In this document: positions 268 through 27,065 of the stretch, one piece after another | Position numbering within the stretch: the stretch's first letter is position 1 | How the letters are laid out: each line of letters starts with the position of its first letter | The notes under the pieces: model-generated | The model's database searches: none | What the model saw: only the letters and a program-made list of their open reading frames with translations | Told to the model about the DNA's origin: nothing | Program-made: the position numbers and the translations under genes | Source: a virus | IMG/VR virus record: IMGVR_UViG_3300043294_000487 | Location: 1 to 27,534 of that record | Length of the DNA stretch: 27,534 nt | Strand: one strand, 5' to 3'

Positions 268-278
268 GCTATTCCCTC

Positions 279-3200
279 CTAATGTGCTTTGGTTCTTCCG
301 CTTGTTCTCAGTCGGGTGTGGATGGCAGTTCGCAAGGGCTTCGTAAGTTGCAGGGTATCTAACTGCGCCTGTTCACTGGGCGATGCTAGCGGTAGAAGCC
401 GTGCTTTCGTAACCGCGCTGAGGTATGACCATTTGCGTTGCAGGGTGTCCATCTTGGAATCCTTCAGGAATCGGGATTCGCCCTTCTTTGTAACTAACCC
501 TTGCTGTACGGCTTGATCTGCAATTGCCTGCGCGTTGGTTGGGTCTTGCTGTATGCGTTGTCGTACCGCGTCCCTGAGTTGTATCTGTGCCATCGTCCCA
601 GACGATTCAAGCATGGTCGGCGTTTGTTGGTAGTACGCGTTATCCACAGCTTTCTCAAAGGATGATTCACCTTGAGTGTAATCTGAAGGTATGTAAGCAT
701 ACCGTCCGATGCCTGTGGCTGTTGCCACTATACCAGCAGGCGTGATTTGAGGATTTACTTGTTGACCGAGATTGCCCTGGATAGCGCCCCTGATTATGTC
801 AGCAAGACTACTGTTAGGGAAAACATACGTACTAACTGAGGACGTGCTAAAAGGCGTTGCCTCTTTGCCAAAGTATTCCAGGCTTGCAACCGTTTGTTGC
901 CACAAGGGATCTTTTGGATTTGCTATAGGATGGTTGCCATAGGCCACGTTAGTCGCCCACCCTACAAGTCCGCGTGTTAGCGGTGAAAGTTTTGATTGGG
1001 CAAATTTGCCCGCGCCACTAATAGGACCTTCCTCACCGATATATTCAGCCATGTAAATCATATCCCCCAAAGCGCCACGAAATGGGGAGAAGAACACTCC
1101 AGGGGCGATCTGTATGTCGGCTTCATGTCCTCTGGGATTTTGTAGAGTAGAGTGTCCTGTAAACAAGTAGTTGAATACCTGAGCTAGCATTATCCCGCCA
1201 ACGGCGGATGTAACCAGGTTTTGTCTTGCCAAGCTGCCTAATGTTCCGCCTTTAACGGCATTTAAAGGCATGTCGTATACATTAGATACGGTGTAATCCG
1301 GTGCGAGAAATGCCAGTCTGAAAACGCCTCTCCAGAAAGGCGTAGTGCCCAGGGCTTCCCAATTACGGCCACCAAAAGCGGCGTTGACTTGGCGTGCTAC
1401 ATCTCGTTCCAGTTGTGTTGATTCGGCGTTATCCATATCAGGAGTTACATGGGAGGCGACTTTAATTGTCCAATCAGCTATTTTTGCAAAACGTATAATT
1501 TTTCCAAATAGCAGTTTATTGGACTTATTAAGCAGACCGGGACGTTCTATCTTTGAAAGCAGGCTATTATCTTGAACAAGATTAGTAACTATATCTTGGT
1601 TTTTGTAAAGCGCGTCTGTCGTGCCTGATGCTCTGACAAAATGCAATTCTTGAGCGTTCAGGAAATCATTATCGGTAAATAATTGATGAATTAGCTTTGG
1701 GTGTGTGAGAATGTCAAATCCATATTTTGACTCGTTAAGCGCAGCAAAAAGCGTATTTATGTAGTGAAAGCCTGACATGGCAAAATTGTATATCCTTACA
1801 GTATTCTGAAACTTTTGGATGTTTCGTACTAAATCCACTTTCCGCAAAGTATCGGGTTCGGTAATCGCTTTCAATCCTCTGGCGTATTCCGTAGGCAAGT
1901 ATAAGTGTTTACCCTCTGAGTTTGCTATGCCCGTATCTTCCGTGCCGAAGACCGGCTTATTCGACCACAGACCCAGCCCCATGTCGGCTGTCTCATTAAG
2001 CAGTTCACGCCGGGTGCCTGCACGGGCCATACTCTCGTTATACGAATCGTATAAAGTATTGGCACGTGCCGTAATTGGCTCGACACGGGCTTTGGGATCG
2101 AGAAGCGATTCAAGTGGATTGTCGTATTCACGGGCTCTGCCGTGGGCTGTTCCGGCAGTTCTAGCACTGTCCTTTTCTCTGTAAAGAACGTTCATATAAT
2201 CATCGTGGGTACTTTTAAGTATTCCCAGGAACTTACCGTATGCTCCGTGTTCGCTGTATGCCTTGTCAAGCATTTTATAGGCCGTTGTTGCCTCTGGTGT
2301 GGGATTGTCCGCAAGGTTTTTTGCCCCGGCAATAGCTTGCCTCCAGGTCATTCCTTTGGAGGCCGCGTCAGGAATTTTTTGATCCAATGCTTCTGCCGGA
2401 TTATCCAGGTATTCTTGTATGAGGTTCTTGTCACCATGCAACCAGCGATATACAGTAATAGCTTCCATATCGTTTGGTGCTGCTTCGGCAGCTTGGGTGG
2501 CCGTTCTATGTCCCAGCGTTATTTGTTCGCCTTTCTTGCCTACAACATCGTATCGCCAAGATTCAGTTGATTTGCTGGCATTGTCTTTCATTTGCAGGTT
2601 GAGTGGATCGGTCAGGACGCTTTTGAAATCTTTGAACTCATTTTGTGTTCCTAGCAGCGAACTCTTGGCGTCGTTGTATTGTTTTAGAGATTCCGTCCAT
2701 ATGGGTTCCAAGTATGGCCTGATAAGATCGCCAAAATCACCAAGCATACTTGCCGACCAATCAGAGAAATCAAGTGTTCCATTCAAAATCTTTTCAGCGC
2801 CAATTTGGGCATACGCCTGCAATATATCCGGGTCTAATCCTGCGCCAAGTTTCGTTATACCCTGTTTTTGCTGCTGTGCCAGTTCTACAAGTTTATCTCT
2901 GCCTGCCTGCCCAATCTCGGTTGCCTTGATACGCATCGCTGATTTCATCCGGTTATCTACAGGTGTTTCGCCTGTTTTAGCCGGAGCCTGTTCAGCCGTT
3001 CCAACCTGTTTTGGGGCTAAATCGGGAAACTCTCCCTGAAGTTCCGGGTACTTATATAACACTGCCCGAGCAACATTAGGCTTTGTATCTTTATTGCGAA
3101 GTAGATCCCGCACCTTGTCAAGTTGTTCTGGTGTACGCTCTGTGGTTGGTGTTACAGCTTTTCTGAGATTATTTACAACCTCTGGGGAAGTAGTTGGCGC

Positions 3201-4616
3201 GGGTTCAGCAGAAACGCCTTCTGCGGCCTCACCAGAAGCCTTTGCCGCATAACCTCTAAGCACTGATGCAAATTCGTTAGGAGCGTGAAGATTAAAGAGG
3301 CTAAAGTGCTGTTCCATACCCATCGGATTTTTCGGAAAGATAACATTGTCTTTTGGCATTCTCGCAGGTCCAAATTCGGCTATGTTTCCTTGCGAATCCT
3401 TTGGCGTAAACTCTTTAATTACAATTTCGGCATCATGTGTAAAGTCTTGCAAAGTGTATTCTGGATGATCCTGTTGAATCGTTTTCAACATGGCTTTCAG
3501 ATCAACGGGACGACCCCACAACGTACCAGGACGCTCGTAAGCCATCTGATTAACTTTTTCATAATATGGACGCCAAAAGTCCAGCACTTTCTGTACTGAA
3601 GTGACTGCTTGCTCCTGTGCCTCGCCAGGAGCGTTTTCTAGGGGGGTCACTGGTACTTCAGGGTACTCCTTACTTGGTACTGCTCCTTCAGAAACGCCGC
3701 CCACGTCCGCATTAGAGGGAGTTATAGGTGGTACGGCTGGTGCTTCTGGTACAGTAACTGCCTCACTCGGTGTTACTTCAGCAGAAACGCCTTCTGCGGC
3801 CTCACCAGAAGCCTTTGCCGCATAACCTCTAAGTGCTTGTACCAATGAAGTTGGTATCATGGCTAACCCGGCAAATAAAGCGGCATTCTCCGCCGCTGTT
3901 TTTGGTATGTTCCATCCTTGCGCTCCTTGTGCTAGAGCTTCACCCGTTCCATAAATTCCTCCGGCAACGGCAGACCCCGCAATCCTTTCTAGCAAGGGGT
4001 TTGCTATTCTCGCGCCTATTCCAGCAACTCTTTCTCCAACTTCCCCGATAGGTCCGAAAGCTGGTGTAAGGCTGGCCTCAAGCACACCACCAACAAGATT
4101 GCGTCCCAGACCCGGTTTCATTCCCTCAGAGGCAAGAAGCTGCTCGCCCGTAGTCTGCCGTTTGCCTTCAAGTCCTTGCAACCACGCCTGGCCTCCGCCC
4201 GCAAAAGATTTCCATGACCAGGGGTTCTCACCCTGAGCCTTGTTTACATCTTCTTGCTGTGCTGCACTCAAGAAAGCGTTGGGAACGGCATTTAAGGCAT
4301 ACCAAAGGGCTTTGCGTGCTGTACCTTGAGGCAACGCGGGTGCCGTTACCGATTTTCCCGTTTCTTCTGCCGCTGCCACATCTTCCACAGGTACTCCAGA
4401 CTGAGCAGCAGCCATTTCCTGGGGAGAAACGCGGGCGCGACCGGACTTCTCCGCCTGCAAACCGACAGCAATGGAACGCAGTTTTTGCGCTACGGGAGTA
4501 GCTTGGTTAATGCCACTTGTAAGCATGCCAAAGCTTCCGAAGCCGGCAGAGGCTAAACTTTTCTTTTGTGCCGGAGCACCGGGTAAACTACTTCCAAAGT
4601 CAGCGAAAGTTAGCAT
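279..4616 (-). CDS. giant putative internal virion / DNA-ejection protein (1445 aa)
   Basis: This is the largest gene here and sits at the end of the structural operon, where podoviruses place internal-core or ejection proteins. That role is inferred from position and composition. Residues 1-260 are Gly/Ala-rich with amphipathic and hydrophobic stretches. Residues 262-280 and 453-471 are an identical 19-residue repeat (LRGYAAKASGEAAEGVSAE) flanking a Pro/Val-rich linker and a small domain (GTLWGRPVDLKAMLKTIQQ). Around 1080-1112 lies FGGRNWEALGTTPFWRG followed by FLAPDYTVSN, a motif seen in very large phage proteins of the 'large polyvalent protein' kind. No transglycosylase or protease motif was recognised. 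It starts at an ATG after a GAGGG-type ribosome site. The next gene's ribosome site overlaps its stop. Confidence 0.75.
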   Translation of the reverse strand: MLTFADFGSSLPGAPAQKKSLASAGFGSFGMLTSGINQATPVAQKLRSIAVGLQAEKSGRARVSPQEMAAAQSGVPVEDVAAAEETGKSVTAPALPQGTARKALWYALNAVPNAFLSAAQQEDVNKAQGENPWSWKSFAGGGQAWLQGLEGKRQTTGEQLLASEGMKPGLGRNLVGGVLEASLTPAFGPIGEVGERVAGIGARIANPLLERIAGSAVAGGIYGTGEALAQGAQGWNIPKTAAENAALFAGLAMIPTSLVQALRGYAAKASGEAAEGVSAEVTPSEAVTVPEAPAVPPITPSNADVGGVSEGAVPSKEYPEVPVTPLENAPGEAQEQAVTSVQKVLDFWRPYYEKVNQMAYERPGTLWGRPVDLKAMLKTIQQDHPEYTLQDFTHDAEIVIKEFTPKDSQGNIAEFGPARMPKDNVIFPKNPMGMEQHFSLFNLHAPNEFASVLRGYAAKASGEAAEGVSAEPAPTTSPEVVNNLRKAVTPTTERTPEQLDKVRDLLRNKDTKPNVARAVLYKYPELQGEFPDLAPKQVGTAEQAPAKTGETPVDNRMKSAMRIKATEIGQAGRDKLVELAQQQKQGITKLGAGLDPDILQAYAQIGAEKILNGTLDFSDWSASMLGDFGDLIRPYLEPIWTESLKQYNDAKSSLLGTQNEFKDFKSVLTDPLNLQMKDNASKSTESWRYDVVGKKGEQITLGHRTATQAAEAAPNDMEAITVYRWLHGDKNLIQEYLDNPAEALDQKIPDAASKGMTWRQAIAGAKNLADNPTPEATTAYKMLDKAYSEHGAYGKFLGILKSTHDDYMNVLYREKDSARTAGTAHGRAREYDNPLESLLDPKARVEPITARANTLYDSYNESMARAGTRRELLNETADMGLGLWSNKPVFGTEDTGIANSEGKHLYLPTEYARGLKAITEPDTLRKVDLVRNIQKFQNTVRIYNFAMSGFHYINTLFAALNESKYGFDILTHPKLIHQLFTDNDFLNAQELHFVRASGTTDALYKNQDIVTNLVQDNSLLSKIERPGLLNKSNKLLFGKIIRFAKIADWTIKVASHVTPDMDNAESTQLERDVARQVNAAFGGRNWEALGTTPFWRGVFRLAFLAPDYTVSNVYDMPLNAVKGGTLGSLARQNLVTSAVGGIMLAQVFNYLFTGHSTLQNPRGHEADIQIAPGVFFSPFRGALGDMIYMAEYIGEEGPISGAGKFAQSKLSPLTRGLVGWATNVAYGNHPIANPKDPLWQQTVASLEYFGKEATPFSTSSVSTYVFPNSSLADIIRGAIQGNLGQQVNPQITPAGIVATATGIGRYAYIPSDYTQGESSFEKAVDNAYYQQTPTMLESSGTMAQIQLRDAVRQRIQQDPTNAQAIADQAVQQGLVTKKGESRFLKDSKMDTLQRKWSYLSAVTKARLLPLASPSEQAQLDTLQLTKPLRTAIHTRLRTSGRTKAH
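3204..3260 (-). repeat. 57-bp perfect direct repeat, copy 2 in the coding sense
   Basis: This segment is identical base for base to 3777-3833. The offset is 573 bp (191 codons), so the repeat is in frame and encodes LRGYAAKASGEAAEGVSAE in both places within the 1445-aa protein. Confidence 0.97.
3777..3833 (-). repeat. 57-bp perfect direct repeat, copy 1 in the coding sense
   Basis: This is the partner of 3204-3260. The flanking bases diverge immediately on both sides, so the repeat has sharp ends. It brackets a linker-plus-domain module of the giant protein. Confidence 0.97.
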
Positions 4617-4630
4617 TAGAAATCCCTCAT

Positions 4631-6094
4631 TTAAAATACTCCTTGAAATGGTGAATCCGATGCCGTAGGTGTCGCAGGTGCTTGATTTTGTTCCTCTGCT
4701 GCCAACCGTGCGTTATTTAGATTTATCGCGTAGGTCACTATATCAGCAGGATTAACACCCTCTGCTTCAAGAGCGGCAGCATTGTTATAAATGTCGGCGG
4801 TAATATCCGCTATTGACATTCCGCTTTGGTACTCCTGAGCGACTATATTATAGGCGCTGGAGTACGCTTGATTACTCAACTGCGCTGTAGTCGGTTTAGA
4901 AGATTTGCCTGATGCCGTATTCAATGCTTGAGTAAGTCTTTCCTGAGCATCGGTAATCTCCTGCCCCTGGTATGCTGTAGTCTGATTGTACGGCATCTGC
5001 TTCCATTGGTTCTGCAATTCCAACTGGTATTGTTTCAATAGATTGGCTTGGCTCGTTTCCTGTGCCGTCTGTTGTTGCTGGGCGTACCATTGGTTTAACT
5101 GGCTAGTCAGGCTGTACTGCTGTTGATTTATCCCGGATTCCTGTGTGTTGTAGGCTTGTAAGTTAGTTGCCTCTTGTTGAATGGGTGCCGTATACGCTTG
5201 CTGGTAAAGATTTGCTTCCTCAGTGGCTCCCTGCATTTGGGTACTTGCCAGTTGTAAAGTTCCTTGGAAAACTTGGTTCTGTTGTTGGGCAAACCAACTT
5301 GCTAAAGCTGATTCTTCGTTGGTCAATGCTCCTGTTTGCATTTTCTGCTCAATGTAAGCCGCCGCGCCAGAAGTTAGAGTCCCATCCTGCGCCATTTGAT
5401 TTCTAGTCTGGGCGATATTATCGTCAAGATCCTGCTTCATCTGAGCAATGGAAACTTGGACGCTCTGAGGAACGGACTGGTTCTGGTCCTGCGCGATCAT
5501 AGTCTGGAGAGTTCCTAAAGCCTGGGAATATTGCGTCTGGTACGCCTGAAGCATAGCCTGACCCGCCGAACCCATTTGCTGGGCGTATGTATTCATCTGA
5601 TTGTAAGTGCTCGTCGCCAGTGCCTGCTGTTGCTGAATGTATTGCGGTATCTGCGCCAATTGCTGGGTGTAGACTGACTGATACGCCGGAGTAAGGCGGC
5701 TTTGAACAGATTGGAGCACAGCAGGAGTATCGTAGGTTGTACCCCCGATGTTGTAGTCCGGCGTAACCGATGCTGTCTGCCCTGTGGTTGGATTGGTCAC
5801 ATCTACGTTACCAGCCTCGTAATTGAGGCCATAGTCGCTTCCCAGGGTAGACCTGACCGGGGATTCTCCCATGCCCTGCATCATAGAATTGATCGCGCTC
5901 TGACTGGTATAGGCCGATCCATTTTGAAGTTGGTAGTCACTAGGACTGAAACTGTAGGATTGCCCCTGGGAATTGGATACAGTAATCGGCTGATTAGCTC
6001 CCTGCCAGTTCACCGTAAAACCGGCGTTCTCCAGAGTCTCTCTCAAGGGTACACTGTAATCGCTTGTCGTTGCTGGTGCTGTAGTTGTTGCCAT
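4631..6094 (-). CDS. Gln-rich virion-associated protein with stalk-like N-terminus (487 aa)
   Basis: The function is not recognised. Residues about 12-70 (VPLRETLENAGFTVNWQG, then an ITVSNSQGQ strand and an NGSAYTS segment) resemble the copper-amine-oxidase N-terminal/stalk repeat of clostridial surface proteins, which typically reads VPLR..E.lGa.V.W. The rest, about 130-480, is a long Gln/Ala/Tyr-rich, probably helical or coiled-coil region with many QQQ runs. That composition fits an extended or internal virion protein. It lies between a fibre-like gene and the giant internal protein, so a role in the short tail or ejection apparatus is inferred. The start is supported by AAGGAGG before the ATG. 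It ends 14 bases before the next gene. Confidence 0.7.
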   Translation of the reverse strand: MATTTAPATTSDYSVPLRETLENAGFTVNWQGANQPITVSNSQGQSYSFSPSDYQLQNGSAYTSQSAINSMMQGMGESPVRSTLGSDYGLNYEAGNVDVTNPTTGQTASVTPDYNIGGTTYDTPAVLQSVQSRLTPAYQSVYTQQLAQIPQYIQQQQALATSTYNQMNTYAQQMGSAGQAMLQAYQTQYSQALGTLQTMIAQDQNQSVPQSVQVSIAQMKQDLDDNIAQTRNQMAQDGTLTSGAAAYIEQKMQTGALTNEESALASWFAQQQNQVFQGTLQLASTQMQGATEEANLYQQAYTAPIQQEATNLQAYNTQESGINQQQYSLTSQLNQWYAQQQQTAQETSQANLLKQYQLELQNQWKQMPYNQTTAYQGQEITDAQERLTQALNTASGKSSKPTTAQLSNQAYSSAYNIVAQEYQSGMSIADITADIYNNAAALEAEGVNPADIVTYAINLNNARLAAEEQNQAPATPTASDSPFQGVF

Positions 6095-6646: not shown

Positions 6647-9600
6647 TTACCAAACACGCTCAGGCCGCATTGCCCGTGGATAGAACGCGAGAGCATAGCC
6701 CAGAAATACGGGACCGGAGTTTTCCACTGCGGACCAGATTAGTTCAAGCCCTGCCGTTCGCGCATACGGATACGGGTAGAGTCTTTTTACCGTTAGGTTG
6801 TTGGCCGCAGGAACGGTGAAAGAGACTGGAGGTTGAATTACTCCGTCGATGATCGGGGAAACCTCTACGGTTGTATCAGTCGCTCCTCCGCCAAAAGCCA
6901 CGTCGAAGTATTTCAATCTCTTCTGCCAATCCTCTCCGATAAGAGGTAATTGAGCGGTATCAACGGTAACGGTAATTGGGGTTCCGCTGTCATTATCTGC
7001 TTGTTCCATCTCGAAAACATTCCCGGAAACAGATGATCCATAAACGTATTTCCATTCACCACGTTCCCAGAAAGACAGAAAACAGGCTGGTGTCCAGTTC
7101 CTCCAGATCGACCAGGGCATCATTTTAGGATTTGACATATCGTAGACTAAAAGCGTGTCGTTGTAAGTGGCATTCTCGCTTGGCACAGCAGCGATCAGTT
7201 TGTTTTTGTAGTAAAATAGAGCCGCATTTCCCAGTAAGCTCTGATTCAAAGAGTTCCAGAAGTTTTGTATTTTCCGTGTTAAGAGAGTGCTTTTCCTAAA
7301 GTCGGTTGCCCAAATTCCGTCCCGGTCAAGAAGGAAAAATCCTCGTGGAGTCCAGATCGCTCCCCAAGGAGAAATCGTGCCGCCACTTCCAGCAGTATAG
7401 ATGTTGAACTCCACAGCCGATCCCGTATAAGTGCCTCCAGCCAGGTAATAGGATTGATGCTGTTTTATAATTACAAACATGGTTGACGTAGCGATCAATG
7501 ACATAATCTGGTCGCCATCGGAAGGGTTCACATCCTGAAAATTGATTGCAGGCCACGAAGTCATATCTAGCGGGTCTGAGTAGTATAGCCTTGCCGGATA
7601 GCCGGGGGTGCAAGCAGCAAAAGTTCTGTTTGCATAAATGGCACATGTTGCCGCTCTGGGAGCCGCAGATAATACATTTACATTCGTTCCATCATAAGAA
7701 ACAGGAATATCTGCTCCATTAAAGACGATCATGGTATCCTGCAATTGCCCAAAGAAATACTTGCTTGCAGGAGCCATTCCTGCTTTAATCACCGCAGCAG
7801 ACGGATTGCCCGCATAAGACACTGTGGCCGTGCTTACGTTCGGAGACCCGGCGTTGCTTATCTCTTGCAGGATGAAACGGATCTGGGAGTACGGTTCTGG
7901 CGGCGCTGAAGCTGTACCGCCGTTGATCTGCGAATACCAGTTTGACCAGTTTACTCCGTCTGCCGAAGTTCTCGCCTGGCAAAAGTCCGTAGTGCCCGAA
8001 GGTTGGTTGTCAACCCACAATACTTCCAAGGTGGAATAATCGGAAGCGTTGAAAGCGTTCAAAACCGGGCTTTGCCAGACGCTCTGCCGGGTAGCCGGGT
8101 AGTTCAGGTTGCCATCAAACGAGAGCAGGTAAGTCGTGTCCACATCCCAAGCCTGGGGTTGTTGGTTGGTTACATACGCCTGATGTTCCGCCAGCGTTCG
8201 GGCCCTGGATGAGGTGCGGAGGTCGTCGATCAGTCCATCGCATTGCGCAGTTCCACCCGCCCATGAGCCAATATACATATTCGCCGGAAGTGTTCCCACA
8301 GGTTCAACGTAGGCCAGATCGCTGCCTATTTGTGAGCCTTCCTTGCATAACCGTATGTGCGTTCCATCGCCGCTAAAACTAATTCGATATGGCGTTCCCA
8401 CCGTTAAGGCAACCGTATCGACAATATCATAAAAGGTTCCGCCGCTTTTTATTTCGCCGCTTAGATACCCTGACGACGTAATTCTAATATCGAAATAATT
8501 ATTTGAGTCGATCTCATAGCTACAAAGCATCACTTGCGTTCCTAATGTGTTGGATGTCGGTATATAGACCATCTCTACCGCCCAATTCCCCTTCGCAAAC
8601 ACCCCCGCCGTGGGGATGGTCAGGGTTTCAGCGGCGCGGGTGGCACTACCAGTGATCCAGGATGTGGCATATTGCTTGTTCTCGATCTGGATACCGTCAA
8701 CCCAGAAAGTAACAGCCGCCTGTACTTCGGTGCAGACAAGTATAACGGCAAATGTAGCGGTTGCTGGGGCAATAGCCACGCCTGAAATCTCTTGCCAAGC
8801 GGATGTTGCAGTTGCTCCCGGCAGATATAGAGGAGCGCCAATCTGAGTACCGCTAGAATTATACCAGTACAGCGTTGAGCCTATTGATCCTGAACCATAA
8901 AGATGAAAAGATACGGCATAGGAATTTCCTGCTGTTACAGGCGTCCCACCTTCACCAAGGTTAGGACTGTTAGTGGAAACATAAACGCCTTCATAGTTGT
9001 TTGCAGATGTTGTAACAACCTTTAGGCTTGAAGTACCCGCCCATGTTTCTGTTGCGTCAATACTGAGGGTCGCCCCATTTGCGGCTGTAAATCCGGTTGT
9101 CCCGCTTGTCGGGTGACTCCGGTTTGCCGTAAGCAGGTTGGTCGTGCCTTCCTCCATCTGCAATGCTTCGCCAAAGTAAGCGCTGCCCATGCCATCGCCC
9201 ACCTGCCAAGACGTGGCATATTGCTTGTTCTCGATCTGGATACCGTCAACCCAGTACGTATGGCTGTTTGTGTCGTTCTGAAAGGCCGACAGATAGACAC
9301 CTGTTTTACCCGTTGGGATCTGGAAGGTATAAGTAAGGCGTGTCCACCCTGTATTGATTAGAGTCGTAGGGGCGTTATTCCCTATCTCCGTGCCATCGTT
9401 GTTGAAGGCAGCAATATAAATCTGCTTTCCTCCAGTGTTTCCTCTTGCATAAAATGATGCCGTATAATACTGCCCCGCGGTTACAGGCCATGAACCACCA
9501 GAACCGTTACGCAGGGATACACCAGTATATAACGCCCCCTGACTGACAACTTTTATAGAATAGCTTTCTTCCCAGGCGTAGGTGTTATCTCTCGTTACCG

Positions 9601-11659: not shown

Positions 11660-12880
11660 TTAGGCAGCAGCAAGACCGTAGAGCAGGCCAAGACGATTCC
11701 GGGAGTGGGCAACCATGTTCATGTCCCAGATCCAGATCGCCGTATAGCCTCTCTGACCGTCCCAGTGAATGACGTCTCCACCAAGATCCTGCCATCCGCC
11801 ATCACTAATCTCTGCAAACTTCACGATTTCCTTGTCGATGAACCACGCCGTATTCACCGGGCAGTCTCTTCCGTCACGGATCAGCGGGATGCCGTTCCAG
11901 TCGATACCCTTGTGGCCGCCGGAAAGCTGCGGAGTCTCAACCACAGGTATGCGCCGGTAGGCCGTCAGAACAGCAGCGGCTACGCGGAAGGTTGAAGAAT
12001 CGCAGACGATGAAGGAGACCTCGCCGTTGTTATCCTCGATGGGCATGATCACTTGGTCCATTAGAGGCACGGAGACAGCAGCGTTTGAGGCGTTGACGAT
12101 AATGCTCTGCCATTCCTCGTTACCCGCGGTAGCAGGGTTGATTGTGGCATAGATTGCCGTCCCATAAACCGTGGAGCCAATTACCGCTCCGAGTCCGAGC
12201 ATTTCCGAACCGTAAGAGCCATAGAAGGAAACCACATCGCCGGTATTAACAGCCACCGCCGCACCAGAAATGGTAATCGAAGTAGAAGTCTTGGACAATA
12301 CCTGGCGGTTGGTTGCGATGTCCCCAATAGTTGCACGGGAGATGTCAATATAGACACCATTGTTCGCCTGGGCAAAAAGATACTTCGTTGTGTCGGAAAT
12401 GGTGAGCGTATTGGAACTGCCCGTAGCGGTGCAGGTCGCGACAACGCCAATGCCGTTGGAGTAAATCTGCCGGTTGATCGACTGGCGCATCCACTTGACG
12501 GTGTTATCCATTTCCAACGTGGGAATACCCTGCCATACGGCGGTCTTGTTATCGCCGACATTCTGCGCCCGGAAAGTGAACCCGATACGACCAGTCTGCT
12601 GAACCGGGGTAAAGGTCGCGCCGCCGCCGGTCGTCCGGCCCGGGTTTGGCAGTACGCCGGACTCTCCGGTAGTATTGTGGCCCTGGGGCAGCCCTAACAT
12701 GATCGGAACATAGAACTGCAAACCGAAGGGGGTGGAAACGGTGAAGTCGGTCGTGCGCTCCAACTCATCCAGGAAAATCGTCTTTTTCGTGGCGTTATCC
12801 CGGATGTAGTCATCGTAGACTTCCTTCAAAAACGCAGAGTAATATGCTAATACTTCTGGTGACGGTGTGCCGTGTGCCAT
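11660..12880 (-). CDS. major capsid protein, HK97-fold with insertion domain (406 aa)
   Basis: This forms the icosahedral shell. The N-terminal arm is followed by an FGLQFYVPIML segment, then TFTPVQQTGRIGFTFRAQNV and a long helix (PTLEMDNTVKWMRQSINRQI). Residues about 145-220 form an inserted beta domain (TNRQVLSKTSTSITISGAAV, then NTGDVVSFYG) of the kind seen in many short-tailed-phage coat proteins. The C-terminus has the A-domain-like IEDNNGEVSFIVCDSSTFRV and GIDWNGIPLIRDGRDCP. Its place right after the scaffold gene fits. AAGGAGG precedes the ATG. The family call rests on fold-like features and synteny. Confidence 0.8.
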   Translation of the reverse strand: MAHGTPSPEVLAYYSAFLKEVYDDYIRDNATKKTIFLDELERTTDFTVSTPFGLQFYVPIMLGLPQGHNTTGESGVLPNPGRTTGGGATFTPVQQTGRIGFTFRAQNVGDNKTAVWQGIPTLEMDNTVKWMRQSINRQIYSNGIGVVATCTATGSSNTLTISDTTKYLFAQANNGVYIDISRATIGDIATNRQVLSKTSTSITISGAAVAVNTGDVVSFYGSYGSEMLGLGAVIGSTVYGTAIYATINPATAGNEEWQSIIVNASNAAVSVPLMDQVIMPIEDNNGEVSFIVCDSSTFRVAAAVLTAYRRIPVVETPQLSGGHKGIDWNGIPLIRDGRDCPVNTAWFIDKEIVKFAEISDGGWQDLGGDVIHWDGQRGYTAIWIWDMNMVAHSRNRLGLLYGLAAA

Positions 12881-13857: not shown

Positions 13858-13890
13858 AAAAAACCCGCTCCATGAAGGAATGGGTTTTTA
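13858..13890 (-). terminator. rho-independent terminator overlapping the portal stop codon
   Basis: AAAAACCC (13859-13866) pairs with GGGTTTTT (13882-13889), with a shorter inner pairing of TCC and GGA. The portal TAA (13890-13888) lies inside the stem. On the minus transcript the stem is followed by TTTTTT, so some termination is expected before the scaffold and capsid genes. The arms also make it A/T-tracted in the plus sense. Confidence 0.7.
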
Positions 13891-15789
13891 TGATATTGCA
13901 AGCCCTCCAGCCCGGTAACTTGGATTCATCACTCTGGCTTGAAGTGGCAATTTGCCCTTTGCTCCTCCTGGTGGAACAGGAGTTTGTTGTGGCATCTGAG
14001 TAGGCGGCCTGGCGTTAGGTTTGCCCTTTTCAGGTGGCGATTGCTGTGACTGAGCTTGTGCCATAAACTGCTGGTGTTGCTGATCATGTTGATCGAAAAT
14101 CTTTTTGATTTTAGTCGGCTGCTGTTCAAACGCCGGGGTCTTGCGCTCCCGGTTATGCTCCAGCCTGTGGATGATGTGGTTGTGCCACTCCTCCACTTGA
14201 ACGGGATTGCCCTGCTTCATCTGATCGTTTTCTCTGAGCGCCTGCTTTTCATCAAGCTCTAAATCAACGGTTATCTCATTGAAATCCAGTTCCTGATTTT
14301 GTGCCTTGATTAGATAACGTGGATCTTGAGCAATCCCCCGGTCAGTCAGTCCCATGACAAAACCAACGTCCGCCTGGATCTCCTGCGGGGTTTTTTTACT
14401 CTTGACGGAAACCGCCACTCTAGCGTTATCGGGAATGTCAGATCCTTTGAATAAAGCACTTCCCTGATCCTCGCCGGAAACAGTGATAAACCGTGGCAAA
14501 TCACAGTTGGCACGCCCCAGTTGAAGCACACCATTCAAGGATTTTTCCACCATGTTCGTATATTCATCCCGCATAGGTTGCCGGGCATCATCCGTGCTTT
14601 GCATAAGCTGCTGCATCTGATTGCCCGTCACGCCCCGTTGTGCGCCCCTAACTACTCCAGCCATCTCGTCAGCTTCTTGCTCCAACCTCAGCAAAATATT
14701 TGGCAACGATGGCGGATACGGCTGAATCTGCACTTGCTGGATAGGATTACCCTGTTGTACCAAAGGATTGGTGTAAACAACCTCACCTGGATACCAACCA
14801 GGCTCCTGCCACAGAGACCCTTTAGGAGCGATTAACGGTGGGTTTGCCAGTTTGACTGAGCTTTCCAGGATGTCACAGCGTAAACGGTTATAGATAACGT
14901 TGATCTGCCGCATGTCCGTTACTGAAGAATCGCCGATGATCTCCCCAGGTATTTGAGTATGGCGCATGATTTCAAAAGGAATTTCACAGCCCGGTATTCC
15001 GGCGTTCGGATTATCCCCCTCGAACAAGACGTTTTCAGCAGAGAAAACTAAGTAATACCCTGATGGATAGCGATCCGTTGAACGCATGTAAAACGTAGAC
15101 ACAGGAGCAGATGGTAGACGGTTCTGAACATTTTGCATTCTCAGTTTGCTTACAGTAGTGCTCATCATGTCGTAATTCGTTCCGACAGCCACATCCTTAC
15201 CATACTTCTGCCTGATGTATTCCTTGCTGCGGAGCTTCTCCCGGATTAGCCAGGAGGATTCGTCTACAAAACGGGCATGAGGATCGAACAGCATTTCAAA
15301 GGGAGAGCAGGCATCGATCATTGGATCTCCACCAGGAACTATCTCCCCAGCCATGTCGTATTTAGGGCCTGCATTGTAATCATATAACCATTGAATACCG
15401 CCAAAGCCGCAAAGCATGGCATAAAACACGGCATCACGATATTGGCGGGCAAAATCATATGTCTTATAAAGCTGATCAAGATATGCCTTGGCCGCTTTGC
15501 ACCTCTGAATGGAATCGGGGGTCACAGGAGTAGTTTCTACGTTATACTTTAATTGCTGCGCCATGATAGCGCCGAACTCCCGGCGCGTCCTCGGACGAAT
15601 GATGTTGGACGTTGGCCGTGGCTTTTTTGTATCTTGGATGACCGTTCGCAAGCGTTGGGTATAGGGATCGTAAGCCACCCACTGCTCATTCATGAAGAAG
15701 CAGACGTTGAGCAACCAGTTTCTCTTGTAGGGCTTGATGATCTCCTTGGCGGCTTTATAAAGTTTGAACACTTCTGCCGGTGAGGGCAT
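13888..15789 (-). CDS. portal protein, P22 gp1-like (633 aa)
   Basis: This forms the dodecameric DNA channel at one capsid vertex. Residues 1-70 hold an NVCFFMNEQWVAYDPYTQRL segment and KPRPTSNIIRPRTRREFG, the typical 'R P..N.i' patch. YAMLCGFGGIQWLYDYNA and ACSPFEMLFDPHARFVDESS are characteristic of P22-type portals. A long helical region (QEADEMAGVVRGAQRGVTGN, then NQMQQLMQSTDDARQ) matches the stem/wing helices. The last 70 residues are Gln/Pro-rich and probably disordered. P22 gp1 is 725 aa, so the size is close. It is 15 bases downstream of the 325-aa gene, and its stop lies inside a terminator stem. Confidence 0.85.
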   Translation of the reverse strand: MPSPAEVFKLYKAAKEIIKPYKRNWLLNVCFFMNEQWVAYDPYTQRLRTVIQDTKKPRPTSNIIRPRTRREFGAIMAQQLKYNVETTPVTPDSIQRCKAAKAYLDQLYKTYDFARQYRDAVFYAMLCGFGGIQWLYDYNAGPKYDMAGEIVPGGDPMIDACSPFEMLFDPHARFVDESSWLIREKLRSKEYIRQKYGKDVAVGTNYDMMSTTVSKLRMQNVQNRLPSAPVSTFYMRSTDRYPSGYYLVFSAENVLFEGDNPNAGIPGCEIPFEIMRHTQIPGEIIGDSSVTDMRQINVIYNRLRCDILESSVKLANPPLIAPKGSLWQEPGWYPGEVVYTNPLVQQGNPIQQVQIQPYPPSLPNILLRLEQEADEMAGVVRGAQRGVTGNQMQQLMQSTDDARQPMRDEYTNMVEKSLNGVLQLGRANCDLPRFITVSGEDQGSALFKGSDIPDNARVAVSVKSKKTPQEIQADVGFVMGLTDRGIAQDPRYLIKAQNQELDFNEITVDLELDEKQALRENDQMKQGNPVQVEEWHNHIIHRLEHNRERKTPAFEQQPTKIKKIFDQHDQQHQQFMAQAQSQQSPPEKGKPNARPPTQMPQQTPVPPGGAKGKLPLQARVMNPSYRAGGLAIS

Positions 15790-15804: not shown

Positions 15805-16782
15805 TTAACTGCTTTGCGTCTGACTACCCTGGTTTTGTGTTTGATTCTGTGCCAGTCTGTTTTGCACTGCCTGATGCAAAAATTGTTGCCATTGGGCATC
15901 GTTTTGCATGTACATAGGTGTGTTTCCTTGGAGTGCCTGCTGAACATCGCCACTCTGTAAATATTGCTGCAATCCCGGAGGCACGTTGCCGAATACCTGT
16001 TGGTAAGTATTCATGAGGGTGTTAATATCGGGCATCGCCGCAGAAGCGCCCCCCTGGTAGGTAAACCCGCTGGCGCTCTGTCCCATACCCGAAGGAAGGG
16101 CGACCGTGGGCGCGGTAGGCGTTGTTGGAGTTGCTGCCGATATAGTTGGAGACACTGTTACCGGGATTGGCGGCGTGGTCGATGGCGCTGTCGTTGTAGT
16201 CGTTGTTGGAGTCGTTGTAGCAACAGGTTGTATTGTAAATCCGGGCGTTGTGCCAGATCCCCAACTAGCCACATACTTCTCTGCATCCTGTAGACTAGCG
16301 AATCCATAAAGTGTGCCATTTGGCGCTGTCCAGCTATAGTCGCCAGCACTGGAATCATAAGTAATCCCACTGGGAAGATTTGTTGTTTGGGGCGGTGTGG
16401 CAACTGGTGCTGCGACTGGTGCAACCTGAGATACGCCAGCAGTACCCGCCGCGTCCGCGTTTTTGCCCCCTGTGTTCCCAAAGTAATCAGCAGTTGTGCC
16501 GATAGTAACGGGAGCCGCAGGTGTAGTGCCCAGCTTAGCATTTAGTAAACTACCCAGGTCTGCTCCTACCAAATCCTGTACGGAACCACCACTTGATCCT
16601 GTTGTGTTGGCGCTTGAACTTGTGCCCGTGCTGCTAGAACTGGGCGCAGTTATACGGCTGCTGACCGCCGATTGTAAAGATGCTTCATGCGAGGTAGCCG
16701 CAGACTGTGACGAAAACTGGTTTCCGTCCGAAGTTTGAAAAGCCGTACCGCCCATAATTCCACTAACTGTAGTTACTGCCAT
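15805..16782 (-). CDS. low-complexity Ser/Thr/Pro-rich protein beside portal (325 aa)
   Basis: The protein is not recognised. The first 80 residues are Ser/Thr-rich and may be disordered. A small folded-looking unit at about 140-180 contains GITYDSSAGDYSWTAPNGTL and LQDAEKYVASWG. A Thr/Pro linker follows (TTTPTTTTTTAPSTTPP), then a helical Gln-rich tail (DINTLMNTYQQVFGNVPPGL, then QWQQFLHQAVQNRLAQNQ). AGGAGG precedes the ATG. It lies directly upstream of the portal and faces the cargo operon across a 64-bp gap. It may be a virion decoration or accessory packaging protein; position is the only evidence for that. Confidence 0.65.
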   Translation of the reverse strand: MAVTTVSGIMGGTAFQTSDGNQFSSQSAATSHEASLQSAVSSRITAPSSSSTGTSSSANTTGSSGGSVQDLVGADLGSLLNAKLGTTPAAPVTIGTTADYFGNTGGKNADAAGTAGVSQVAPVAAPVATPPQTTNLPSGITYDSSAGDYSWTAPNGTLYGFASLQDAEKYVASWGSGTTPGFTIQPVATTTPTTTTTTAPSTTPPIPVTVSPTISAATPTTPTAPTVALPSGMGQSASGFTYQGGASAAMPDINTLMNTYQQVFGNVPPGLQQYLQSGDVQQALQGNTPMYMQNDAQWQQFLHQAVQNRLAQNQTQNQGSQTQSS

Positions 16783-16846
16783 TTTATTTACCTCCTTGAC
16801 AAAAAGGTTTAACCGGGCTTACCATCCTCCATAGGGGGGAATTTCC

Positions 16847-17509
16847 ATGAAAAAGAGAATTTTGGTTCCGATTCTCATTGCCTTATTCTCAATAATAGGA
16901 ATTGCCTATGCTGATAATCCAATCTCTATCTACATCAATGGACAGAAAATACAGAGTGACGCGCAGATCATTGATGGTAAAACAATGGTGCCCATCAAAA
17001 CCGTCTTTGAGAGTCTTGGCGCTCAAGTCAATTGGAACGGAGACAGCGTTTTCATCACAACTGATCCAATTATTGAGCCGATGATCACAGGTCCTAATGA
17101 TTTCACTTCTCTTATCCACGAAGCCTTAAATTTAACCAAACAAAAAGACGTAGCCGTTTATGACTACATCTGCACCGGGATCACGACGATTGACTTCGGA
17201 CCTGGAGAAAAAGGTTATACCGCTTTCAACATTAATAAGAATGTTCACTATGTTGACAGTGACTTTTCGTTAGTCGAACAAGATTTGCCAAATCACAGCG
17301 ACCAGGTTGCCTATTATGTAGCTTCGCTCATGCACGAAGCATCCCATACACACATTTACAAACAGGAAGGCTTTTTCATCGGTGACTCCGGTTATGAACT
17401 TGCAATTTGCAACATCAATGCTCTTCGGGCACTTCAAATATGCTGCGATTCACCCAAGATTGAACAGTCTTACGAAAGTACCATTGAGAAGGAGTTAAAT
17501 TTGCAATGA
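16847..17509 (+). CDS. secreted HExxH protein with N-terminal copper-amine-oxidase-like stalk domain (220 aa), cargo gene
   Basis: The N-terminus (KKRILVPILIALFSIIGIAYA) is a clear signal peptide, probably cleaved near residue 22. Residues about 25-72 match the copper-amine-oxidase N-terminal/stalk domain: ISIYINGQKIQSDAQIIDGK, then MVPIKTVFESLGAQVNW. The C-terminal part has H163-E-A-S-H167, and E184 in GYELA lies 17 residues further on. That is a plausible gluzincin zinc site (two His from HExxH plus a downstream Glu), so a secreted metallopeptidase is inferred; substrate unknown. It is on the opposite strand to all neighbouring structural genes, which marks it as a likely moron acting on the lysogen's surface. 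A TTGACA box lies at 16796-16801 without a good -10 box. Confidence 0.75.
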   Translation: MKKRILVPILIALFSIIGIAYADNPISIYINGQKIQSDAQIIDGKTMVPIKTVFESLGAQVNWNGDSVFITTDPIIEPMITGPNDFTSLIHEALNLTKQKDVAVYDYICTGITTIDFGPGEKGYTAFNINKNVHYVDSDFSLVEQDLPNHSDQVAYYVASLMHEASHTHIYKQEGFFIGDSGYELAICNINALRALQICCDSPKIEQSYESTIEKELNLQ

Positions 17510-17697
17510 AACACAAAATGAATTGGATTGCACTTCTTGATTACGCATTCTTCATTTCTTGGCTCATTATTTTTATGGTGTCATCTGCTGTTTCTCATTG
17601 GCTATGCATACCGAATCTATTTGTCATGTTTTACGGGATTATCAGGCTTCTCATGCTGCTGGAAGAAAGAGAAAGACTTCGCCGAGAAAAAGGCTAA
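17506..17697 (+). CDS. small two-helix membrane protein paired with the HExxH gene (63 aa)
   Basis: Its ATG overlaps the stop of the HExxH gene as ATGA, so the two are translationally coupled and should work together. Residues about 7-27 (WIALLDYAFFISWLIIFMVS) and about 30-50 (HWLCIPNLFVMFYGIIRLLM) form two membrane helices. The charged tail EERERLRREKG is probably cytoplasmic. No family is recognised. It could anchor, protect from, or help export the secreted partner; that is inference from coupling alone. The stop codon touches the stop of the convergent 88-aa gene (TAATTA), leaving no room for a terminator. Confidence 0.65.
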   Translation: MKHKMNWIALLDYAFFISWLIIFMVSSAVSHWLCIPNLFVMFYGIIRLLMLLEERERLRREKG

Positions 17698-17964
17698 TTA
17701 GTCTCCTGGTTGTAGCGTCCTCAAGAAAGCATCTTCGTCAAAAGGTTGCGGTTGCGGCGTTGGCTGTACTGGGGCAGTCATCGCTTCGCCCCACTTGTAG
17801 ATCGTATAGTTGGTCGCCATGATCCGATCTAGGCATTTGTCGATTCGCTCGAAGGACTTATCCACGTTGGTCATATACATTTTCTCAATGCGGATCTTCT
17901 CTATAAAACGCATAAACTCCACACCCAAAAGAACCACTATCAATGCAATGGTAATAGCGATCAT
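17698..17964 (-). CDS. single-span membrane protein (88 aa)
   Basis: Residues 1-17 (MIAITIALIVVLLGVEF) form a strong N-terminal transmembrane segment. A charged helix (RFIEKIRIEKMYMTNVDKSF) and a Pro/Gln-rich tail follow. The start overlaps the stop of the zinc-finger gene by ATGA, so it is in that operon. Small one-TM phage proteins in late operons are sometimes lysis accessories, but no holin, XhlA or spanin signature is visible, so no function is assigned. It converges head-on with the plus-strand cargo pair. Confidence 0.65.
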   Translation of the reverse strand: MIAITIALIVVLLGVEFMRFIEKIRIEKMYMTNVDKSFERIDKCLDRIMATNYTIYKWGEAMTAPVQPTPQPQPFDEDAFLRTLQPGD

Positions 17965-21886: not shown

Positions 21887-23629
21887 TTAATAAAACAATC
21901 CAAGATCAGGATGCTGCCATTTTTCTGGGTATAAATGTCTCCTACGCGCATCATGGAAAAACGCGGGTTGTTCTTCTACCGCAGACCCTTGACCTAATAC
22001 CCGCCGTTTCATCTCACTTTGGCCTACTGTAGTCATTAACATAGGTTGATACTCTTCTCTAGCAATATTTGCCAACAGCAAAGAAATCACCTGGTCATCA
22101 TGTTCACCTTGAATAGCCGCGATTTTACCCTTCGCGTTCTGGACAAACGCTAACATCTCGACAAGAGTTCGCTGGTCGTTCACCGTAATTGCTCCCGTCA
22201 TAAAAGCTGAACGACCCTTATCCAGTAAATACGGTCGGGTCTTCGGACCCGTGTAAAACCCCAGGCGATTTTCCCAAGTCTTGTTGATATGATTGTACGC
22301 ACGTGAATGATACAGAAACTGATAACCCATATCACGAAGCCAATTTAACACGGTGATTCCGTGGCCGTTAGACTCCGTATTGATCAGCGCATAATTATAA
22401 AATTGTCCTATCAACAACAATTTTTTAGCAAACTCAATCGGCTCGCACAACACAACAATATGAGCTACCTGTTCGCCTGTCTGAGCATCCAAAACGTCTG
22501 CCGATGAATTATCGGGAGAGACAATTGATGTTGCCACACCACTTGAAGTATCTGCTCCAATCACATAAATTCCATCTTTGACTGGAAACTTAAACACACG
22601 CAAAGAATCTCCCACAGGTGTAAATTCCGGGGCCATAGTTGTCTGAAGAATATCGCCCTGGTCATATTGAAGATGTTGGACTTGTGACAAGCGTTCGGTA
22701 ACACGGGTTGTTGAAAAGAAGTTGGCGCTATCTTGAATCCAAGCCTCCTGTTCGGTTGCTGGGAAACTCTTCTTGAACTTCTCTTCCGAACCGTTATACT
22801 TGTCTGCAATCGTATGCTGCCGCCAGTAAAGCTGCTCACGCGTGATCTTTCCCCGCAGGTACAGTGGCCTCAATTCATCCGGCACGACAACTTCCACGCC
22901 AAAAGGAACAGGTAAAGAGTACGCTTTATGTCTGTACCAAGGAAAGAACAACGGGGTATAGGAGTTCTTACCGTTCTTCGCGCCCTCATAAGTGTCGTGA
23001 AAGTAGCCTGAGATCCCATTTCCGGTAGACTCTTGAAGCACCACGGAACTGACCGTTTCGTGAAACGAGGCAAACAGGGAACTGAGCACGTCGTCCGGCC
23101 TGGACCAGAACGCGACTTCGGTTAAATGAAGCACCTGTTTGGTTCCACCCTGGCCGATTCCTTTGCCGCCTGCCGTTTGGATGCTCAAACGGGAAAAGGT
23201 ATGAGAAAAACTCAAAGTATTCCCACTAAATTCCAGCATTCCAATATTCAAAGCGTTCGTAAACCACTTCGGCAAGTTTTCCACGGCAAACTTGATAATG
23301 CCGTAGACTTCAGCTTCACCATCATCCGTATGAGCCAACTGAATGCCCTTGACCGTTCTTGTTAGCATCAACCACAAAACGTATGCGCTACAAAAAGTTG
23401 AAACCCCAATCTGCCGGGATTTCAGTACAATAATTCTAACTGGTCTGCCGCGCCGTTCCTGAATAGCCTTCCAGATTTCCTGTTGCTCATTGTTAAACTC
23501 TAAAAAACAAATCTGACCCTCTACATCAATGATTTGAAAACAATTAGCGCAGAAAAACTTGAAGTCGCTGACCGCCTTTTTAGTAGCCGCTACCACCGTT
23601 TGTAAGTCAGTTTGTGTGTTATCCAACAT
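21887..23629 (-). CDS. terL: terminase large subunit (TerL), 580 aa
   Basis: This is the DNA-packaging ATPase and nuclease. K-S-R-Q-I-G-V-S-T (about 70-78) is the Walker A variant common in TerL. VLHLTEVAFW (about 166-175) is the Walker B region with the catalytic Glu; the usual Asp is Thr, similar to the S-E-V-A-F-W found in many TerLs. ESTGNG is the coupling motif. GADTSSG (near 360), INTESNGHG and EHDDQV (near 510) supply the acidic residues of the RNase-H-like nuclease. ATG 23629 is chosen over 23677 because it overlaps TerS by only 11 bases and follows GGGGAAGGG; the upstream start has no ribosome site. Confidence 0.92.
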   Translation of the reverse strand: MLDNTQTDLQTVVAATKKAVSDFKFFCANCFQIIDVEGQICFLEFNNEQQEIWKAIQERRGRPVRIIVLKSRQIGVSTFCSAYVLWLMLTRTVKGIQLAHTDDGEAEVYGIIKFAVENLPKWFTNALNIGMLEFSGNTLSFSHTFSRLSIQTAGGKGIGQGGTKQVLHLTEVAFWSRPDDVLSSLFASFHETVSSVVLQESTGNGISGYFHDTYEGAKNGKNSYTPLFFPWYRHKAYSLPVPFGVEVVVPDELRPLYLRGKITREQLYWRQHTIADKYNGSEEKFKKSFPATEQEAWIQDSANFFSTTRVTERLSQVQHLQYDQGDILQTTMAPEFTPVGDSLRVFKFPVKDGIYVIGADTSSGVATSIVSPDNSSADVLDAQTGEQVAHIVVLCEPIEFAKKLLLIGQFYNYALINTESNGHGITVLNWLRDMGYQFLYHSRAYNHINKTWENRLGFYTGPKTRPYLLDKGRSAFMTGAITVNDQRTLVEMLAFVQNAKGKIAAIQGEHDDQVISLLLANIAREEYQPMLMTTVGQSEMKRRVLGQGSAVEEQPAFFHDARRRHLYPEKWQHPDLGLFY

Positions 23630-24044
23630 CAATAACAACACCCTTCCCCAAGTTCTGCCGTAGTCTGGAAAGCTCATCAGGTGTCACATTTATATTTTGC
23701 AGATTGATATTTGTTTTAGCACCGCTGCGAAGAACGCCGGCAACCTCCAATAGAAGGCGGCTTGCTGTAATGTTGCCCTCCTTCCCTGATAGTGCTGTTT
23801 TTGCCAGGTTGTCAATCAGTTCTGGCACATAAACGGCAGCCTTGACCGCGACTTTTTCCCGAAAAACCTCCATAAACATTTGGGTATTCACAGCGGCATT
23901 CAAAGCAGCCTTTACACCCACAGGCTTGTCAACCAGCATCTTCTCAACGAACTCGCAGGTATTTCGCAATAGTTCTTCAGTCTTCTCCGCCAGCACTTCC
24001 GGGAGTTGCGTTGGCACTTCTAAGTTTTTCGGCCTGCTGTTCAT
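23619..24044 (-). CDS. putative terminase small subunit (TerS), 141 aa
   Basis: The assignment is by size, position directly before TerL, and the C-terminal pattern. ASRLLLEVAGVLRSGAKTNI followed by NLQNINVTPDELSRLR resembles the oligomerisation and tail parts of TerS proteins. The first 60 residues are helical. TerS recognises the packaging site and feeds DNA to TerL. Its annotated ATG overlaps the end of the upstream gene by 68 bases and has a poor ribosome site (GAGG, 13 bases away). The true start may therefore be internal, for example the GTG codon in PEVLAEK. Confidence 0.65.
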   Translation of the reverse strand: MNSRPKNLEVPTQLPEVLAEKTEELLRNTCEFVEKMLVDKPVGVKAALNAAVNTQMFMEVFREKVAVKAAVYVPELIDNLAKTALSGKEGNITASRLLLEVAGVLRSGAKTNINLQNINVTPDELSRLRQNLGKGVVIDVG

Positions 24045-24935: not shown

Positions 24936-24964
24936 ATTATAAATCCAAACGCGAACTTTGTCAA
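24936..24964 (-). promoter_or_regulatory. consensus sigma-70/sigma-A promoter for the late (packaging/structural) unit
   Basis: TTGACA (24964-24959), a 17-base spacer and TATAAT (24941-24936) match the consensus perfectly on the minus strand. The palindrome TTGTACAA (24923-24930) lies at the predicted start site, and the 18-bp hairpin follows. The TGA stop of the 57-aa ORF lies inside the -35 box. Confidence 0.85.
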
Positions 24965-25134
24965 CACTCCTGATATGCCCTGTAGTACCACCCGGTAACT
25001 TTTTTTGCGGTCCTCCTCTTGCGCCCCGCTTTTTTATTACCGGAATGATGCCCGTCAGAACGAATCTCAATTATACCATGCTGACTTGGATAGCCTTTTG
25101 GAAGGCATTGCGAAAGCCCAGAATACAGTGACAT
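24961..25134 (-). CDS. small basic protein between the divergent promoters (57 aa)
   Basis: ATG 25134 is chosen because GGAGGT (25146-25141) is six bases upstream. A start at 25158 would place that site inside the gene. The protein starts MSLYSGLSQCLPKGYPSQHG and has a very basic middle (HHSGNKKAGRKRRTAKKVTG) and an aromatic end (WYYRAYQEC). No family is recognised. The charge suggests nucleic-acid binding. Its location between the early and late promoters suggests a switch role, which is inference only. No clear promoter of its own is seen. Confidence 0.5.
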   Translation of the reverse strand: MSLYSGLSQCLPKGYPSQHGIIEIRSDGHHSGNKKAGRKRRTAKKVTGWYYRAYQEC

Positions 25135-25168
25135 CAAGCCACCTCCATTATTTGCCATTCAAAAACCC

Positions 25169-25197
25169 TTGACATGTATGGCAACAGGGCATATAAT
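25169..25197 (+). promoter_or_regulatory. consensus promoter of the early regulator operon
   Basis: TTGACA (25169-25174), a 17-base spacer and TATAAT (25192-25197) are a perfect consensus match on the plus strand. Transcription should start near 25204-25207, at the edge of the operator palindrome. Confidence 0.88.
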
Positions 25198-25206
25198 GAT
25201 GTTAGC

Positions 25207-25226
25207 ACTACATAATGTTATGTAGT
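25207..25226. promoter_or_regulatory. 20-bp operator palindrome
   Basis: ACTACATAATGTTATGTAGT has perfect nine-base arms around a central TG. It lies at the predicted transcription start, so a bound protein would block the promoter. The adjacent Xre-type regulator is the obvious candidate, giving autoregulation. Confidence 0.75.
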
Positions 25227-25254
25227 AGCCACTAAATGGGGGAGGAGCAAACGT

Positions 25255-25464
25255 ATGATCTCAAGTAATCTCTCTGCTATTTTAGGCCAAAAGCGCCTAA
25301 AAATTTCTCAGGTGTCAAGAGACACAGGGATCAGCCGGAACGTCCTGACTAAATTATACTTCGATAAGCAGCAGGGTGTCCACTACGGCACGCTTGACAA
25401 GCTCTGTGCCTATTTGAAAGTGACTCCAGGAGACTTAGTTACATTTATCTCTGATCTAAACTAA
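25255..25464 (+). CDS. Xre/Cro-type HTH regulator, YozG-like (69 aa)
   Basis: A single helix-turn-helix fills the protein: LSAILGQKRLKISQVSRDTG, then ISRNVLTKLYFDKQQGVHYG, TLDKLCAYLKVTPGDLV. This is the usual one-domain Cro-like arrangement with the recognition helix near SRNVLTKLY. GGAGGAG lies seven bases before the ATG. It is the first gene after a perfect promoter with a palindromic operator, so it most likely represses its own operon. A role in holding or tuning lysogeny is inferred. About 70 aa is normal for YozG-like regulators. Confidence 0.85.
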   Translation: MISSNLSAILGQKRLKISQVSRDTGISRNVLTKLYFDKQQGVHYGTLDKLCAYLKVTPGDLVTFISDLN

Positions 25465-26446: not shown

Positions 26447-26668
26447 TTATTCGATTCTGTCCCAATCATCTCTAGAAATATTGGCTCGTCTTAAAATCCT
26501 TGACAATAAATTAGGCCCGATGTCATTATCATGTTCATTAGGAATGCTAAATTTCAATTCCCCGTTTTTCATAAAAGGATGACTGCCTCCAACGTATGGG
26601 CCTGTACAACCATATGCTCTAAGTTTCCTGATTAAGTCAATCCTGGAGATGTTTGGCAAACTATTCAC
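26447..26668 (-). CDS. hicA: HicA-type mRNA interferase toxin (73 aa)
   Basis: The start is set at GTG 26668, which overlaps the end of the antitoxin gene and gives the usual HicA opening (NSLPNISRIDLIRKLRAYG). The catalytic histidine motif is G-G-S-H-P-F. The following strand and SIPNEHDNDIGPNLLSRILR with NISRDDWDRI match the family's dsRBD-like fold. HicA cleaves mRNA and is neutralised by HicB. Length is typical (60-80 aa). The longer frame reaching 26788 would overlap hicB by over 100 bases and is not needed. It probably belongs to flanking chromosome. Confidence 0.8.
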   Translation of the reverse strand: MNSLPNISRIDLIRKLRAYGCTGPYVGGSHPFMKNGELKFSIPNEHDNDIGPNLLSRILRRANISRDDWDRIE

Positions 26669-27065
26669 CCCTGGCTCTTTCTTCTTGCCAGTCTTCATTA
26701 AGGTTCGCATTTCCCAAAAGCGGGAAATCTTTATCGCCGTCACGAAATTTAAAAAGCATCCAGTCTTCCAATACTTTCTGTAAGGCATCTAGGCATTCTT
26801 CATTCTTCTTCCCCATGGCCCACACGCCCTGACACGAAGGAATTTCTCCGTAAAATATGCCTTCTTCTTCTAAAAATTCAATCCTTGCCTGCTTCATAGC
26901 AGCACTAATAAAAACTGTAATTGCTCCCATTGGCTTCTTTTCAAGAGTTTCTGGCGACACCATTACGAATGTGCCCCCTTCTATAGTTACATAGTTTACG
27001 GTGATTTGCGTACCATCCGATTGAACGGGGAAATGCTCTCTGATGTCCGCAGCCCTTAGTCCCAT
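26661..27065 (-). CDS. hicB: HicB-type antitoxin with N-terminal extension (134 aa)
   Basis: The HicB core is at about 56-115: ARIEFLEEEGIFYGEIPSCQ, then GVWAMGKKNEECLDALQKVL and EDWMLF. This is the usual partial RNase-H-like fold (Y.a.iP...G....G.t..Ea...l.e.l..w). Residues 1-50 (ADIREHFPVQSDGTQITVNY, then ETLEKKPMGAITV) are an extra N-terminal piece not present in minimal HicB. GAGGGG precedes the ATG. It is transcribed before hicA and overlaps it. No C-terminal DNA-binding domain is obvious, so autoregulation is uncertain. Confidence 0.75.
   Translation of the reverse strand: MGLRAADIREHFPVQSDGTQITVNYVTIEGGTFVMVSPETLEKKPMGAITVFISAAMKQARIEFLEEEGIFYGEIPSCQGVWAMGKKNEECLDALQKVLEDWMLFKFRDGDKDFPLLGNANLNEDWQEERARGE

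Follow-up and report, generated by a model that had tools for sequence, protein, structure and literature searches.

A two-gene cassette antisense to the late operon of a little-sampled phage encodes a stalk-domain protein with a putative zinc peptidase site and a small membrane protein

An antisense position combined with a promoter of its own is the layout characteristic of accessory loci (PMC7067206). The Ltp lipoprotein of phage TP-J34 binds the tape measure protein and acts in superinfection exclusion (PMC3952083), and in PaSOD, the Cu/Zn-SOD of Paenibacillus lautus (PDB 8IMD), a stalk domain is carried by a secreted enzyme and forms a homodimer (PMC10432803).

The two-gene cassette described here can be set beside these systems. 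Like the prophage morons, it has its own promoter-like site, lies antisense to a lytic operon and has no evident virion role, whereas no terminator was found behind it, after position 17697. As in the PaSOD-type PF07833 proteins of Bacillota, the product of gene 1 has a signal peptide, followed by PF07833 and by a C-terminal, in this case putative, metal-binding domain; it differs from them in that the C-terminal domain (C-domain) matches no family, SOD included, and in that the PF07833 profile is matched in part. Like Ltp, gene 1 is phage-encoded and its product is predicted to be exported to the cell surface. Ltp, however, has a lipobox and repeat domains and is encoded beside int, whereas the cassette has a membrane partner and an HExxH motif, and no sequence match to Ltp. 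As in the gluzincins, the HExxH motif lies in a predicted helix and a Glu is found 17 residues past the second His, but gene 1 has no profile match to them, its HEASHTH sequence breaks the PROSITE signature PS00142, and its structural models have low pLDDT.

The window, i.e., the whole stretch of 27,534 bases that was analyzed, is a virus record with a long minus-strand virion operon. The cassette (16847-17697, plus strand) lies head-on within this operon, flanked by the minus-strand ORFs 15805-16782 and 17698-17964, and the stop that ends it (17697) is immediately next to the stop of the adjacent minus-strand gene. The preliminary description had reported two plus-strand genes interrupting a minus-strand structural operon, with the second overlapping the first by ATGA; both ORFs are present at these positions, and the ATGA overlap is seen in the sequence. 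The features of the cassette and the landmarks of the operon are:

16796-16825, plus strand: promoter-like site TTGACA-N18-TACCAT, a 10/12 match to the sigma-70 consensus
16847-17509, plus strand: gene 1, secreted 220-aa stalk-domain protein with HEASH...E184
16847-16912, plus strand: signal peptide, residues 1-22 (sequence and hydropathy), with K2K3R4, a hydrophobic core and an A20-Y-A22 cleavage site
16931-17047, plus strand: PF07833 (Cu_amine_oxidN1 / stalk), first part of the profile (profile search)
17333-17347, plus strand: codons for H163-E-A-S-H167
17396-17398, plus strand: codon for E184, candidate third zinc ligand, 17 residues past H167
17488-17494, plus strand: Shine-Dalgarno-like aaggag for gene 2, within the end of gene 1 (sequence)
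17506-17697, plus strand: gene 2, 63-aa protein with two hydrophobic segments
11660-12880, minus strand: major head protein
13888-15789, minus strand: P22-like portal
21887-23677, minus strand: large terminase

When codons were scored with the phage's own genes as the reference, the gene 1 frame was clearly the best of six (0.121, with the next at -0.14), and the gene 2 frame weakly so (-0.03, with the next at -0.173). The genes look real, and chance ORFs were rejected on the PF07833 match and the best-of-six coding frames. The G+C content of gene 1 (0.41) and gene 2 (0.38) is at the low end of the window, where most virion genes have 0.45-0.55, and the codon usage of the two genes is not foreign. 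A known defence system was also rejected, as no PADLOC match was obtained, and so was a structured RNA at the cassette. Elsewhere in the virion operon, a 1445-aa protein (279-4616, minus strand) matches DarB-like antirestriction proteins of the PHROGs along ∼200 residues (E 4.8e-8); its gene contains an exact 57-base direct repeat (3204-3260 and 3777-3833), and a 96%-identical 49-base direct repeat (8657-8705 and 9206-9254) lies inside the gene of a 1317-aa protein.

A second copy of the cassette, with 100% identity, was found in record IMGVR_UViG_3300025469_000089, in which the shared sequence is identical over 12.6 kb and which differs from the window by one mismatch over 17.6 kb. This matching copy rules out an assembly join or a chimeric window; it gives no evolutionary information. 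In the searches made, either gene was present elsewhere only in this sibling record. Scans with exact 8-residue patterns, which miss divergent relatives, returned only this record for gene 1, the C-domain, the HEASH core and gene 2 in viral contigs, and nothing for gene 1 and the C-domain in genome contigs. By tblastn against phages and plasmids we obtained stalk-domain matches only or, for the C-domain, matches at chance level, and portal and terminase searches revealed no similar locus in a related phage. With a gapped, degenerate DNA pattern encoding HEA(S/T)H...G(F/Y)E we picked out 30 loci, none of which was C-domain-like once translated. A third record, IMGVR_UViG_3300038426_000003, matches window positions 1-5595 with one mismatch and runs on beyond the overlap, where it has genes for a Dam-type methylase, for small membrane proteins and for a 643-aa lysin-like protein, as well as one in which DNA polymerase A is fused to a 3′-5′ exonuclease domain and, at the N-terminus, to a domain of the uracil-DNA glycosylase superfamily (L020 474-2768, minus strand). 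Directly downstream of the virion genes is a 442-aa PurD-like ATP-grasp protein (L017 5329-6657, starting within the stretch common to window 1-5595), which matches GARS_A (PF01071, E 1.7e-11) and, weakly, GARS_C. The phage lineage is little sampled, and one lineage is known.

The signal peptide and the copper-amine-oxidase-N/stalk domain that had been proposed for gene 1 were both borne out. The former has the KKR, hydrophobic core and AYA site listed above, and no lipobox Cys is found in its region, the first Cys of the protein being C109. The PF07833 match covers residues 30-67 (Pfam, E 5.8e-9) and scores 36.3 bits, above the Pfam gathering cut-off of 24.2, while spanning just positions 2-41 of the 108 of the profile. 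Because the PF07833 matches obtained by tblastn were mostly from Paenibacillus and other Bacillota on plasmids, and from Paenibacillus phages among the phages, the host would be a member of the Bacillota; among 14 control genomes, PF07833 was found in Deinobacterium only. Three proteins of the phage carry stalk or stalk-like segments, the other two being:

L017 7914-9845 (stretch of the third record): 643-aa lysin-like protein with Big_2 and a C-terminal PF07833 (E 1.4e-11)
5957-6055, minus strand: N-terminal, weakly stalk-like motif of a 487-aa virion-operon protein (4631-6094); a search of one genome gave E 2.4e-5, short of the Pfam cut-off

Pairwise alignments of these three segments beat 500 of 500 shuffles, as expected of a common motif.

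Gene 1 was described beforehand as having a plausible zinc peptidase site. The residues themselves were confirmed: H163, E164, H167 and E184 are at these positions, H169 is an additional His, and, read from sequence alone, gene 1 thus has the HExxH and the downstream Glu of the gluzincins. It is the sole HExxH among the 29 ORFs of the window. The assignment to a peptidase family did not follow, since A165 and H169 violate the extended signature PS00142, and residues 76-220 matched no profile of either Pfam or PHROGs at E values up to 5, and no plausible PDB chain; with the whole protein, nothing beyond PF07833 was obtained in NCBIfam. AlphaFold2 was run on the single sequence of the whole protein and of the C-domain alone, with pLDDT values of 38.9 and 37.6. 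In both of these low-confidence models a helix ends at HEASH or just before it, and a further helix follows; in the C-domain run the latter helix starts at about residue 184 and is preceded by a predicted strand pair. A minimal gluzincin would be expected to show this order of helices, but models of such quality are no evidence of a fold. A zinc peptidase is a plausible reading of the C-domain.

It could instead be that gene 1 encodes a non-catalytic secreted or surface stalk protein, acting as an adhesin, a decoy or a dimerisation partner, and that HEASH is fortuitous. An HExxH arose in 0.9% of shuffles of the mature sequence, a rate of ∼1% per protein of this composition that becomes several-fold higher across the whole window, so that the motif on its own goes modestly beyond chance and is suggestive but weak. 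The departure from PS00142 and the missing peptidase profile also fit this reading, as does the occurrence of PF07833 in other proteins of the phage, strong in the lysin-like protein and weak in the virion-operon protein. On the other hand, the motif lies in a predicted helix with a Glu at the spacing usual for gluzincins, which is coherent for a chance motif. We consider a non-catalytic stalk protein a possibility to be kept in mind, although an unlikely one.

Gene 2 had been described as a two-TM protein, in agreement with our analysis: 19-residue hydropathy windows peak at 2.1 and 2.0, which defines two hydrophobic segments, and the C-terminus is charged and rich in Arg, Glu and Lys. No holin profile was matched in Pfam or PHROGs. 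The weak matches obtained were to DUF6903 and to two PHROGs of unknown function (E 0.0045 to 0.035).

The promoter-like site lies in the 64 bases that precede gene 1, the only intergenic gap of the cassette. Counted over both strands, the window has nine sites that match the consensus at 10 or more of the 12 positions (0.16 per kb per strand), so that one is expected by chance on the plus strand of such a gap in ∼1% of cases; the TTGACA adjoins the complement of the divergent gene's ribosome binding site, which may account for some of the matching bases. Perfect promoters are also present in the window, in a divergent control region (24936-25464) that contains:

24964-24936, minus strand: perfect 12/12 promoter just upstream of the late operon
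25169-25197, plus strand: perfect 12/12 promoter ahead of the regulator
25255-25464: Cro/CI-type HTH_26 regulator

Since two 12/12 promoters are found, sigma-70-type promoters are plausible for this phage, and judging from the consensus match the cassette probably has its own. A near-perfect 20-base palindrome, ACTACATAATGTTATGTAGT (25207-25226), lies between the 12/12 promoter and the HTH_26 regulator, and the phage thus has a Cro/CI-type regulator with a palindromic operator. A link of the cassette to this operator was looked for, and the palindrome has no second copy in the window. Beyond the control region is a toxin-antitoxin pair of HicA (PF07927, E 3e-8) and a HicB-like protein (UPF0150, E 3.1e-24), at 26447-27065 on the minus strand. 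The three records, each of them possibly a fragment, yielded no tyrosine integrase or resolvase, and for this reason lysogeny of the phage and expression of the cassette in a lysogen are putative. The preliminary description had taken the two genes for an envelope-acting lysogenic-conversion pair. The part of this proposal that stands is an antisense, moron-like unit with a promoter-like site and an envelope-directed product; no integrase or resolvase was found to back the lysogenic part, and no terminator was found for the unit. The roles suggested there, receptor shaving and superinfection exclusion among them, are candidates.

Because the pair has a promoter-like site of its own and is antisense to the lytic genes, its anatomy is that of a moron. 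The reading that we tentatively favor, at somewhat less than an even chance, is that of a moron-type accessory unit in which an exported, stalk-bearing, gluzincin-like metallopeptidase works with a membrane partner and clips a host envelope protein. The unit would have been inserted antisense into the late operon and would be transcribed from its own promoter. The gene 1 protein would leave the cytoplasm by the Sec route, lose its signal peptide by cleavage after A22 and be set free on the outer face of the membrane. Without a lipobox, it would be held there, if at all, by the stalk domain, which may dimerise or associate with the wall, or alternatively by the 63-aa membrane partner, made via translational coupling. 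Its C-domain would most likely be a small gluzincin-like metallopeptidase, with the HExxH helix followed by the helix that starts at E184, and would clip a host envelope protein or peptide in infection or lysogeny. The gene structure, signal peptide, stalk domain, motif, promoter-like site and orientation are seen in the sequence; catalysis, the partnership of the two proteins, the target and expression in the lysogen are what we infer. Superinfection exclusion is one possible outcome.

Exclusion might also be brought about without catalysis, by a surface protein that, like Ltp, blocks other phages via their receptor or an entering tail protein. Surface-exposed prophage proteins with such a role are known in Gram-positive hosts (PMC3952083), and the moron-like context of the cassette would suit one. 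However, Pfam and PHROGs scans showed no sequence relation to Ltp, gene 1 lies in the late operon and has no lipobox whereas Ltp is a lipoprotein encoded beside int, and there is no evidence of lysogeny; we therefore regard non-catalytic exclusion as improbable.

Still less probable is an auxiliary lysis unit, in which gene 2 would be a small holin-like protein with two TM segments and gene 1 an exported wall endopeptidase. With its charged C-terminus and two hydrophobic segments, gene 2 is laid out like a class II holin, the gene 1 protein is predicted to be exported, and the lysin-like protein of the phage also has a stalk domain. Against this, L017 already contains a downstream candidate lysis cluster, formed by the 643-aa lysin-like protein, a 74-aa protein that weakly resembles XhlA and a membrane protein of 77 aa; the cassette runs antisense to the genes of the late operon, and gene 2 has no match to a holin profile.

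Finally, a phage-wide docking role of the stalk domain is possible, because PF07833 occurs in gene 1, strongly in the lysin-like protein and weakly in the virion-operon protein, and because the domain dimerises in PaSOD, the one solved member that we found described. We give very little credence to the full scheme, in which gene 1 would pair with the stalk domains of the lysin-like and virion-operon proteins and, at the cell surface, exclude or regulate related phages that arrive there, while its HExxH domain would cut the captured target and gene 2 would hold gene 1 at the membrane.

The metallopeptidase reading that we favor concerns a well-formed cargo unit of putative function, carried by a phage lineage that is poorly sampled. 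Should the C-domain be a true zinc peptidase, it would represent a new family, with no detectable relatives in the scanned collections, that is delivered by a phage to the surface of its host, and the cassette would then be a defined case of a phage that edits the host envelope proteolytically.
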